DNA of 64,000 nucleotides, from contig JAPPCV010000087.1 of the NCBI GenBank assembly GCA_028824715.1, forward strand, positions 1-64,000, read 5' to 3'. Position 1 is the stretch's first letter; each line of letters starts with the position of its first letter. The position numbers and the translations under genes are program-made. Origin of the DNA: Boseongicola sp. (GTDB lineage: Bacteria > Pseudomonadota > Alphaproteobacteria > Rhodobacterales > Rhodobacteraceae). Shown here piece by piece: positions 32,733 to 38,038 of the stretch. The notes beneath the pieces are model-generated. The model was given only the letters and a program-made list of their open reading frames with translations. It searched no databases and was not told the origin of the DNA.

Positions 32733-33080
32733 ATGCAGACCAACGGACTCATCGCGCTCAGGAAACGCGCAGACTACCTCAAAGCCGCGGCCGGCATGCA
32801 TCGCAGCACACCCGGATTCGTTCTCCAGATCCGGAACCGCGGGGAGGAGGAACCGGATAGCATTCGCGTTGGAATCACCTGCTCGAAGAAGGTGGGAAAT
32901 GCCGCAACCCGCAATCGTGCCAAAAGACGGCTTCGTGAAGTGGCGCGCCTGGCGCTTCCCGAGCACGGCCGGAACGGCTTTGACTACGTCCTGATCGGAC
33001 GTCGCCATGTGACGACCACTCGCGGCTTCGCGACAATGCTCGAAGACCTGAAAGACGCTTTGGCCGAGGTCCACAAGTGA
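32733..33080 (+). CDS. rnpA: Ribonuclease P protein component
   Basis: RVGITCSKKVGNAATRNRAKRRLREVAR; downstream of rpmH. Confidence 0.95.
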   Translation: MQTNGLIALRKRADYLKAAAGMHRSTPGFVLQIRNRGEEEPDSIRVGITCSKKVGNAATRNRAKRRLREVARLALPEHGRNGFDYVLIGRRHVTTTRGFATMLEDLKDALAEVHK

Positions 33081-33301
33081 GTCCGCTTGCCTGGATCCTG
33101 GCCCTGGCCGTCCGGGCATACAGGCTGATTCTCAGTCCGTGGATCGGGCATCATTGCCGCTACCAGCCCACATGTTCGGCATACGCACTGGAGGCGCTTG
33201 CAAAGCACGGCGGCCTCAAGGGCGGCTGGATGGCGCTGAAGCGCATTCTCCGATGCCATCCATGGGGCGGAACCGGTGTCGACAACGTGCCCGACCCGTA
33301 G
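33077..33301 (+). CDS. yidD: Membrane protein insertion efficiency factor
   Basis: AYRLILSPWIGHHCRYQPTCSAYALEALAKHGGLKGGWMALKRILRCHPWGGTGVDNVP. Confidence 0.95.
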   Translation: MSPLAWILALAVRAYRLILSPWIGHHCRYQPTCSAYALEALAKHGGLKGGWMALKRILRCHPWGGTGVDNVPDP

Positions 33302-34182: not shown

Positions 34183-36222
34183 ATGTCGAAGCGCGCGAGC
34201 ATGCGAGATGCCAGGGACACTGACGCTCCCGAGCTGTTCGGGTCGGACGCCGCGTGGGCGCCAACACGGGTGCTCGATGCCCAGGCGCTGGGAGTGCGCC
34301 ACTTCGATCTCGACGAGTTCGCTCGGTACCGGTGCATTCGGATCCTCACCTACTCGGCAAGCGTTCCTATGCTCGCCTCGCTGCTCGATCAGTTCGAAGA
34401 GGCAAGCGTCGAGGTGGTGATGGGCCATACTCGAACCGTGAATGACATGGCCGCGCTCATCGCGCTGCAGACGGTCGCGATGGAGGACGTTCGCACGGCG
34501 CTTCAGGGCATCTCCGAGTTGCGCAGGGAGGAGATTCTCGGGCGCATTCGGAGCGGCAGATTGCGCGTGTGGGTGGTCGAAGGACATGTTTCGCATGCGA
34601 AGATCTTCCTGCTTTCGGACGGGCCGGACGGAGGCCGTTCCGTGCTGACCGGTTCAGCCAACTTCTCGGCATCGGCCTTGCTCGGCGACCAGCACGAGGT
34701 GCTCATGCGGTTCAATGACGATCTCGCTTGGGACCATTTCGAGGACCAGTATCGACGCGTCCGGGATCATGCATCCGCCGAGCTACCGCTCGCGAAGCTC
34801 GCCGAAGACCGGCGCGACCCGGCGGATGGCATGTCACCGGTCGAAGCGCCGGTGCTGGCGCCCGACCGCGGGTTGCAGGTGATTCAGGTCGCGAAACCGG
34901 TCGAGGCGGAGGAGTCGGTCGAGCGCGGGCGTCGGCTGGAGAGGATTTACGATCTGGTGCTGCCGGCACTGCGCAAGGAAAAGCCGAAGGCCGACAGGAC
35001 AAAGGTCAGGCTGGACGACTCGATTCGCAAGCGGTTCTCCGGGATGATCCGGCGCCAGACCAGAGGTCAGGCTGCCACCCACCCGACCTTCTCCCTTGAC
35101 CTGGACAGGCGGCAAGCCACCGTCTGCGGCGCCGACTGGACTCTCGACACCGAGGACGGGCAGGTGAGCCGGGACGCCGAAGCGCTGGTGACGTTCTGGG
35201 AAACCTACGGCGAGGCATTTCGCGGCGACGTCGGGAAATTGCAGAAGGACTACTTCGTCTTCCTGTGCTGGATGTTCTTCTCGCCGCTCATATGCACGTT
35301 GCGTCGCCAGGCCGCGCTCGAGGACCGGGACGTCATCCGCTATCCCAGGGTCGGGATCATCTATGGCAAGTCCAACTCCGGCAAGACGCAACTCGTGGAC
35401 ATCGTCGGAAAGTTCATGTTTGCGGACGATTTCCCGAACGCTGTCAGGGCGCCGATGACGGGCTTGCTTCTGCGCGAGATCGATGCGTCTTTCCGGCGCA
35501 TGCCCGCGTTCTTCGATGACATTGGCTGGCGCCGTTTCCGGGACCATGCGCCGGAATTCATCAAGGACGAGACCTTGCCGCCGCACCACGAGACCCCATG
35601 CATGGTGGTCTCGATGAACGCCCGGGTCGGCGCATTCCCGGACGAAGTCGCGAAGCGGTGTCTCCTGATCTACAGCTCTGCCTCACTTCCCAGCGAAGAC
35701 GAGGACGGCCGCATCGCCATGGCCGACCGGCTGGCCACGATCGAGCCCACCACGCATCTCTATCGTCGCTACCTGCGCGTGGTGCTGGACCGCATCGACG
35801 CGGACGGTGGCGACTGGCTGCGGCTGTCGTCGGAAGTCCTGTCAGGCATCCTGGGCGAGTGTGGCCATGATCCTGCATGGGCAGGCCCGGTCTCTTGGCA
35901 GGAGTATGCGTCCACGCGGTATGATGCCCTGCGTGAGCAGCTGCGCAGCCTTCTCGATCCGGCGAGGCGCCAGGCTTCCCGCCCGGCCACTGACAGCGAG
36001 GGCTGGTTTGCCGAGGGAGGCAAGGTCTGGATCCGGGTCGGGACGAACAGTTTCGGACATCCCGACTTCGAGTGGCGGGATCTCCCGACCTACATGCTGC
36101 ACGAGCACGAGAGCCGCGCGGCCGAGTTCGTGCTCGACGTCAAGGCGGTCGAGAATTTCCTGGGCGCAAGACTTGAGCAGCCACGCTGGCGTTTCCCGTT
36201 TCGGTTGCGGTCCGTGAGGTAG
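34183..36222 (+). CDS. PLD-like nuclease domain fused to P-loop ATPase (~680 aa), unrecognised family
   Basis: N-term HAKIFLLSDGPDGGRSVLTGSANFSASALLGDQHEVLMRF (PLD/HKD-like plus GSxN); C-term GIIYGKSNSGKTQLVDIVGKF (Walker A), RMPAFFDDIGW (Walker B-like), CMVVSMNARVGAFPDEVAKRCLLIY (sensor-like). Confidence 0.82.
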   Translation: MSKRASMRDARDTDAPELFGSDAAWAPTRVLDAQALGVRHFDLDEFARYRCIRILTYSASVPMLASLLDQFEEASVEVVMGHTRTVNDMAALIALQTVAMEDVRTALQGISELRREEILGRIRSGRLRVWVVEGHVSHAKIFLLSDGPDGGRSVLTGSANFSASALLGDQHEVLMRFNDDLAWDHFEDQYRRVRDHASAELPLAKLAEDRRDPADGMSPVEAPVLAPDRGLQVIQVAKPVEAEESVERGRRLERIYDLVLPALRKEKPKADRTKVRLDDSIRKRFSGMIRRQTRGQAATHPTFSLDLDRRQATVCGADWTLDTEDGQVSRDAEALVTFWETYGEAFRGDVGKLQKDYFVFLCWMFFSPLICTLRRQAALEDRDVIRYPRVGIIYGKSNSGKTQLVDIVGKFMFADDFPNAVRAPMTGLLLREIDASFRRMPAFFDDIGWRRFRDHAPEFIKDETLPPHHETPCMVVSMNARVGAFPDEVAKRCLLIYSSASLPSEDEDGRIAMADRLATIEPTTHLYRRYLRVVLDRIDADGGDWLRLSSEVLSGILGECGHDPAWAGPVSWQEYASTRYDALREQLRSLLDPARRQASRPATDSEGWFAEGGKVWIRVGTNSFGHPDFEWRDLPTYMLHEHESRAAEFVLDVKAVENFLGARLEQPRWRFPFRLRSVR

Positions 36223-36274: not shown

Positions 36275-37249
36275 ATGCTTGACGAGGCTGACGACATCCA
36301 TCCGCTCTTTCAGGGAGCGCCTTCGACGACCGAGTTCCGGAAGCTCCGAAAGCGCATCATCCGCAATGTACGCATGGCAATCGAAGAGTATGGCATGGTC
36401 GAACGCGACACACGCTGGCTGATCTGTCTCTCGGGCGGCAAGGACAGCTACACGCTCCTCGCTGCGCTGCATGAACTCAAGTGGCGCGGTCACCTGCCAG
36501 TGGACATGCTTGCCTGCAACCTGGATCAAGGACAGCCGGGCTTCCCGTCAACCGTGCTGCCGGATTTCCTCGACCGCATGCAGATCCCACACAGGATCGA
36601 GTTCCAGGATACCTATTCCATTGTCACCGACAAAGTGCCGGCCAACAGGACCTACTGCGCACTCTGCTCGCGGCTGAGGCGTGGACATCTCTATCGCATT
36701 GCCCGCGAAGAGGGGTGCTCGGCAATCGTGCTCGGCCACCACCGGGATGACATTCTCGAGACATTCTTCATGAACCTTTTCCATGGCGGCCGGCTGGCGA
36801 CGATGCCGCCGAAACTCCTGAACGAGGAAGGCGACCTGCTTGTCTGTCGCCCGCTTGCCCATGTGGCGGAAGCTGACTGCGCACGTTTTGCCGCAGCGAT
36901 GAACTATCCCATCATTCCCTGCGACCTCTGTGGCAGCCAGGACGGGCTGCAGCGCCAGCAGGTCAAGGCGATCCTGGATGAGTGGGAAAGGAACGCGCCC
37001 GGTCGGCGGCGGGTCATGTTCCGCGCTTTGACGAACGCGCGTCCGTCGCACCTTCTCGATCCCCGTCTCTTCGATTTCGCGGGACTTGCCAGCAAACCCA
37101 AGGACACGAACGACGTCGATTGCCGTGAATTCTCGGCACTCCCATCGTCCTGGAGCGATCCGTCGGAACCCGCCGTCCCTGGCCCAGCCTCGCCGGCGGG
37201 CGACCCCGCTGCTGCCCGTGCGATTCGCGGGGCGCGCCACACGACCTGA
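36275..37249 (+). CDS. ttcA: tRNA 2-thiocytidine(32) synthetase TtcA
   Basis: [19 protein letters not shown]-loop; [46 protein letters not shown]. Confidence 0.95.
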
Positions 37250-38038
37250 GCGATTCAAGCTGGTCCCGTGACTTCAAGGCAACCGGAACTTCCCGCACGC
37301 GCCCAGCCTGCCAAGGTCAGCCAACGCGGCGTCGAGCACGCCGCCAACTCCACCCTTGATCGACGTCTTGCCGAAATTGTCCTTGAGCTGCCATGACACC
37401 CGTCCCCCATGACGTGACATTCCCGGAATGATGAGCCGCGCCAAGGCGATGGGGAGGCGAAGCCCTGCTTGAAAGGGCCGCTTGCGTCCGCGCTTTCGGC
37501 GGACGCCACAAGCGGTGCCGACCGGAGCATGCGTGCAGATGCCTGTTCTCCCGCCTGCCGGAAGATCGCACCGATCCCCTGATCGAGCGTCCCCATGCAG
37601 GACGGCATCGCTCTTCCAACCGGCAGAAATCGCGGATGCCTTGCGGCGCATGGCTCGATTCCGTCGCACTTCAGGGAGGAGACCAATGCGTTCAACGAGC
37701 GGCCCATGGGTCAAGACGTTCCGTTGGCGATCAAGCCTTTCGCCCGCCTTCGCCCGAGGCTTGGCCCTGCGTGTGGTTCAGGGCCGGCGCGGCCCTGGAT
37801 ACAAGGACGACGGCGGTCTCGCAATGGACCGGCAAGTCGACGGCGAGCGGCGCCTTGACGGGAAGCCCTCTCGCGCCCGGACAGCCAGCCACATCGTGAT
37901 GCCGTGTTCCAGCAATGGTCCAGACGGATTGCCGGCTTCCCTGAAGGCATCATCAACCAGGTCCGGCACCAAAACGCCTTGACCTTTTGGTCACCGGGCT
38001 ATTGAACCACGGGCGCGGTTTAGGAAACCCCGGAATCG

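Follow-up and report, generated by a model that had tools for sequence, protein, structure and literature searches.

The window, by which we mean the whole stretch of 64,000 nucleotides of Boseongicola sp. DNA that was analysed, carries a gene for a predicted fusion of a PLD nuclease with an ATPase (PLD-ATPase) and a gene for an HNH endonuclease, both located between yidD and a ttcA-like gene (Table 1). The HNH gene lies 40 bp upstream of the PLD-ATPase gene in every member of the genus in which the contig permits a check. The gap from yidD to ttcA measures 46-114 bp in four other genera; in this genus it is occupied by the HNH and PLD-ATPase genes. The pair represents a chromosomal two-gene insertion, which is a new point. 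Housekeeping genes surround the PLD-ATPase gene, there is no defence island, and no RNA family was found near it. The spacing around ttcA varies within the genus, with ~50 to 960 bp before ttcA and ~215 to 790 bp between ttcA and yidC (L003:12038-12995; window positions 37250-38038).

Table 1 Features of the PLD-ATPase locus. Positions are those of the window.
Feature	Position	Strand	Evidence or remark
yidD, left edge of the insertion site	33077..33301	+	yidD-ttcA empty site in four other genera
HNH endonuclease gene, 229 aa	33453..34142	+	Pfam HNH_5 1.3e-9; synteny
PLD-ATPase gene (AgaP-like)	34183..36222	+	ATG start, 679 aa and stop
PLD nuclease domain (predicted), residues 42-203	34306..34791	+	Pfam and PDB profile matches, alignment, low-confidence model with Foldseek
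P-loop ATPase (probably SF3-like AAA+), residues ~326-570	35158..35892	+	13-sequence alignment; hhalign with P-loop controls
C-terminal segment, residues 571-679	35893..36219	+	no known domain; dN/dS 0.08
ttcA-like gene, right edge of the insertion site	36275..37249	+	synteny

An earlier, sequence-only reading of this DNA had placed an open reading frame of about 680 codons at this position; its coordinates were right, and all the motifs that it quoted were found in the protein. A GAGG-type ribosome site is conserved ahead of the ATG in six genus members, and in the relative G003 a stop codon lies no more than nine codons before the ATG, leaving an open frame of only 688 aa. Both observations support the ATG at 34183 as the start. 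The PLD-ATPase gene is under strong purifying selection, with a dN/dS of about 0.13 (pairwise range in the genus 0.12-0.16), which is similar to the values for yidC (0.11-0.16). By part, the ratio was 0.10 for the ATPase and lowest, indicating the strongest purifying selection, in the C-terminal segment.

The PLD part contains one half-site (H138-x-K140 ... G157-S-x-N160), and Q170 is conserved as well. Residues 111-197 of the window protein were matched by the Pfam families PLDc_2 (E 3e-4) and RE_NgoFVII (3.5e-4), both below the Pfam cut-offs, and each of the two families matched all seven diverse members tested. The best match in a PDB profile search with a 13-member profile was R.NgoVII (4rct, E 1.7e-4). 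Despite the low confidence of the model of residues 42-203 (pLDDT 51, pTM 0.50), a Foldseek search with it recovered the PLD nucleases Zucchini (2.6e-5) and NucT (5.2e-4), both of which have a PLD fold, among the best solved structures. The earlier proposal of a single PLD half-site holds; HxK and GSxN are present and conserved. The same reading had described the spacing from H-x-K to D (x5) as slightly non-canonical, and this spacing proved to be meaningless: the classical position, HxK(x)4D, is not conserved and is occupied by Ser145 in the window protein, by Ser in Acetobacter and by Glu in Thermus and in NpAgaP (see below). D146, one residue further on, is not conserved either, and a variant HKD motif with D at x5 was therefore rejected.

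The ATPase half contains a Walker A motif at residues 395-402 (G395..GK401), a Walker B motif with DD445-446, a B'-like K461, a motif C with N479 and the Arg finger R492. All 13 aligned members show motifs A, B, B', C and Arg finger in this order, which is the order of SF3 helicases. Eleven residues are invariant in the 13 members (H138, G157, S158, N160, P368, G400, K401, P441, N479, R492 and P635; window numbering), and K140, G395 and D445 are nearly so. Walker B is DD or DE in most members, the acidic pair being incomplete in one of the 13; the B' residue is basic in 12, and motif C closes on N (SMN, TTN or ISN). Together with the PLD matches, the conservation of these motifs across 13 diverged homologues goes beyond chance and bears out the view that a PLD nuclease is fused to a P-loop ATPase in one chain. 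With small profiles, hhalign aligned the ATPase to DUF5906-type SF3 domains with a probability of 88% over 112 columns that span Walker A to the Arg finger. Of nine control proteins, eight reached at most 18% and the best, an AAA ATPase, reached 42%; all controls covered 32 columns or fewer. The test is weak in absolute terms, since with such small profiles one SF3 subgroup scored only 12% against another. Pfam gave no match to the P-loop half, SF3 families included, and the full-length AF2 model, built from six near-identical sequences, reached a pLDDT of 32 and is not reliable; for the first reason the SF3-like character of the ATPase, and for the second both this character and the oligomer proposed below, are what we infer. 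SF3 helicases of the DUF5906, D5 and VirE types share the motif order of the window ATPase, whereas the window protein differs in its fusion to a PLD nuclease.

A characterised counterpart of this architecture was found in haloarchaea. Cheng et al. 2024 described AgaP of Natrinema pellirubrum (NpAgaP), which restricts plasmids together with a prokaryotic Argonaute (PMC11442185). AgaP alone is toxic through its HxK and GSxN motifs, pAgo suppresses this toxicity, and plasmid restriction needs AgaP and its PLD catalytic residues (PMC11442185). In the authors' account the PLD centre alone is responsible for plasmid restriction, with separate helicases suggested as a possible help, and soluble AgaP was not obtainable from E. 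coli (PMC11442185); the words ATPase, Walker and P-loop are absent from the main text of the paper. The frame L096:5998-8151 carries H105, K107, E112, G119, S120, D122, G157, S158 and N160 and can be identified as the published NpAgaP, because all nine residues agree with the numbering of PMC11442185. RefSeq annotates NpAgaP only as a C-terminal fragment and antisense ORFs, though the frame is open for 717 aa (L096:5998-8151).

A profile of members from Thermotogota, Campylobacterota and Lactobacillales found the window protein with an E-value of 3.4e-16 over both halves and NpAgaP with 3.7e-23 over residues 150-698, and a profile of alphaproteobacterial members found NpAgaP at 4e-10; the same searches (Z = 1e6) gave no match among shuffled proteins or unrelated ORFs. 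We conclude from these sequence comparisons that the window protein is a distant, full-length and colinear homologue of NpAgaP. Both show the HxK...GSxN half-site, a linker, a P-loop ATPase with the same motifs and a C-terminal segment; AgaP is the PLD component of the haloarchaeal APAP system (long-A pAgo and PLD). They differ in that identity is about 19%, the distance from HxK to GSxN is 16 residues in the window protein compared to about 50 in AgaP, and Walker A ends in GKT in the window protein and in GKG in NpAgaP. The HxK-GSxN spacing is also short in the Piwi-linked member P0003, so that wide spacing is a mark of some Ago-linked members but not of all. Moreover, the window gene has an HNH neighbour, is chromosomal and fixed in its genus, and no long-A Argonaute was found in an operon with it. 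The sequence-only reading had called the protein undescribed, which no longer stands in view of AgaP, a full-length homologue that is already characterised, though Cheng et al. make no reference to its ATPase half in their main text. Its suggestion of a defence-type role gains support from the same homology, as plasmid restriction by AgaP depends on the PLD residues (PMC11442185). On alignment evidence, the AgaP family is a family of PLD nuclease-ATPase fusions, which is a new point; the open-licence literature that we searched holds no report of the ATPase half of AgaP or of an Argonaute-free bacterial branch.

The PLD-ATPase gene was present in all eight genomes of the genus that were searched, with 89-95% identity and two copies cut by contig ends, and in none of the 29 other Rhodobacteraceae genomes searched. 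In the sample of the class, one of 277 genera carries it, and a profile search of the phylum (299 genomes, 154 genera) matched only the window's own genome (one of 154 genera). Searches of phage and viral contigs gave no relative. Distant full-length members with 25-28% identity occur on Acetobacter and Komagataeibacter plasmids, further plasmid members in Arcobacter, Lactobacillus, Ligilactobacillus and Limosilactobacillus, and an Athalassotoga plasmid member adjoins helicase and DNA methyltransferase genes. Many haloarchaea carry plasmid-borne members. As a plasmid collection was the main place searched for these distant members, their plasmid location may partly be a sampling effect. In the tree, the members from Acetobacteraceae and Thermus fall together with the window genus, and this group stands apart from the haloarchaeal clade (support 100/99), at a place where long branches meet. 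AgaP-family members are scattered over several bacterial phyla and haloarchaea, which is also new. Pfam, NCBIfam, PHROGs and PADLOC contained no full-length match, only weak local PLD matches, in agreement with the earlier statement that the protein belongs to no named defence family. DrmC, ZacB and PLD_Helicase of PADLOC were rejected as its identity, as they matched the PLD part only, and weakly. On Thermus plasmids of two species, PLD-ATPase genes are broken by transposase genes (L019:7962-11020, L020:5962-7849), and Aquifex aeolicus plasmid ece1 carries a split member with the PLD and ATPase parts as separate ORFs (L102:4300-6237).

We further compared the occurrence of Argonaute genes. 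A Piwi domain (PF02171) was found beside or near the member gene in four of eight haloarchaeal records (Natrarchaeobaculum AArc-Mg, Salinirubellus, Natrinema zhouii and N. pellirubrum), and a Halapricum plasmid had a sub-threshold Piwi match away from the member gene. No Piwi match was obtained in the eight genus genomes or on the ten bacterial plasmid records with a member, in a search with PF02171, which may miss very divergent short Argonautes. Bacterial AgaP-family members without a Piwi gene found on their replicon are a new point. The haloarchaeal members without a Piwi match on the plasmid (L025, L027 and L028) adjoin helicase and PD-(D/E)XK nuclease genes; these neighbourhoods are perhaps another AgaP-containing system.

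We consider it probable, at roughly 60%, that the window protein belongs to the AgaP family as a bacterial member without Argonaute, in which a PLD DNA nuclease is fused to an SF3-like AAA+ ATPase and acts as an ATP-gated nuclease. Its most likely role would be to attack the DNA of plasmids or phages; for the window protein, the nuclease activity, its coupling to ATP, the oligomeric state and the defence role are all predicted. PLD nucleases require two half-sites, and for this reason the PLD-ATPase should at least dimerise. SF3 ATPases commonly assemble as rings. The PLD-ATPase could accordingly form a dimer or a ring with active centres made of paired PLD half-sites, while the ATPase would load on or travel along DNA and control when the nuclease cuts. 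In haloarchaea, Argonaute restrains and directs the AgaP homologue; in bacteria, restraint might be intrinsic to the PLD-ATPase, through its own ATPase, or come from another factor, possibly the HNH neighbour. Against the reading as an AgaP-type defence nuclease, a genus-fixed and strongly conserved gene among housekeeping genes is unusual for a defence gene, and as identity to NpAgaP is only about 19%, the function may differ from that of AgaP.

The sequence-only reading had proposed a self-contained nuclease; no Argonaute was found, but the neighbouring HNH gene could have a larger share in the function. The two genes might form a unit in which the HNH protein cuts or senses and the PLD-ATPase processes DNA, with HNH in the place that Argonaute has in haloarchaea. 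They are on the same strand 40 bp apart, are both missing from the interval between yidD and ttcA in relatives, and are retained together throughout the genus. However, an HNH neighbour of this kind was seen in none of the other family members whose surroundings were inspected, HNH homologues with 40-44% identity exist both within the genus and outside it with no PLD-ATPase, and the HNH protein evolves faster (84-90% identity, compared to 90-94% for the PLD-ATPase). We therefore regard a two-gene unit as rather unlikely. The 40-44% relatives are located at other sites in genus-mates (L063, L064, L065), in another genus (L062) and on a Novosphingobium plasmid, and the window HNH gene appears to belong to a dispersed HNH family. 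No PLD-ATPase was found beside these relatives, and the HNH protein may for this reason be either a partner or a fellow traveller of the PLD-ATPase.

The conservation pattern would also fit an enzyme that was domesticated for genome maintenance and lost its defence role, for example in the ATP-dependent processing of stalled forks or damaged DNA: the gene is present in all eight genus genomes, occupies one site wherever the contig permits a check, has a dN/dS as low as that of yidC and is flanked by housekeeping genes on all sides. We consider this unlikely, as none of the other sampled genera in the family has the gene, which is patchy in the wider phylogeny and was otherwise found on plasmids in this analysis, and its characterised homologue AgaP restricts plasmids. 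A plasmid-derived nuclease that serves plasmid competition or maintenance by excluding other replicons, an explanation that overlaps with that of an ATP-gated AgaP-family nuclease, seems quite improbable; although all distant members were recovered as plasmid-borne, some of them beside rep/par genes (Arcobacter L097, Ligilactobacillus L099), distant members could be found chiefly in the plasmid collection, so that part of the bias lies in the search, and the copy in the window is on the chromosome. A lipid-acting PLD enzyme with a regulatory ATPase is highly improbable, since the PLD fold alone leaves the substrate undefined but the PLD part is closest to the R.NgoVII and NucT nucleases and Zucchini, and the SF3-like motor and the AgaP data indicate DNA.

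Returning to the ATP-gated AgaP-family nuclease, the results suggest a broader, largely unstudied family of ATP-powered nucleases. NpAgaP itself carries an ATPase half with P-loop motifs, which raises the question whether ATP drives the nuclease AgaP. With no Argonaute found, the bacterial members offer a non-halophilic and possibly single-gene version of the enzyme and raise the question how foreign DNA is told from own DNA. It may be speculated, as a tentative extension that we do not favour overall, that stand-alone PLD nucleases powered by an SF3-type ATPase form a wide family in bacteria and archaea, of which AgaP represents one branch, that Argonaute is a haloarchaeal add-on, that the ATPase is the core which recognises and shreds foreign DNA without a guide, and that the genus copy is a domesticated, guide-free form.

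Two kinds of known system resemble the window protein in part and are precedents for an ATP-driven nuclease. In NgoAVII and CglI, cleavage is ATP-dependent, a methyltransferase belongs to the system, and the ATPase, of the DEAD family, is a protein of its own (PMC4267653). The resemblance to NgoAVII lies in R.NgoVII as the best PDB profile match to the PLD part, whereas the ATPase is SF3-like and fused in the window protein; a DEAD ATPase or methyltransferase is absent beside the window gene, the neighbours being HNH, yidD and ttcA. The nuclease of the type IV restriction enzyme SauUSI is of the PLD type. Its ATPase is helicase-like, and a target-recognition domain serves to bind modified DNA (PMC7913695), whereas the window ATPase is SF3-like, and no Pfam helicase domain was found in the window protein. 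Compared by description, SauUSI resembles the window protein in combining a nuclease dimer and an ATP-driven DNA motor in one chain (PMC7913695).
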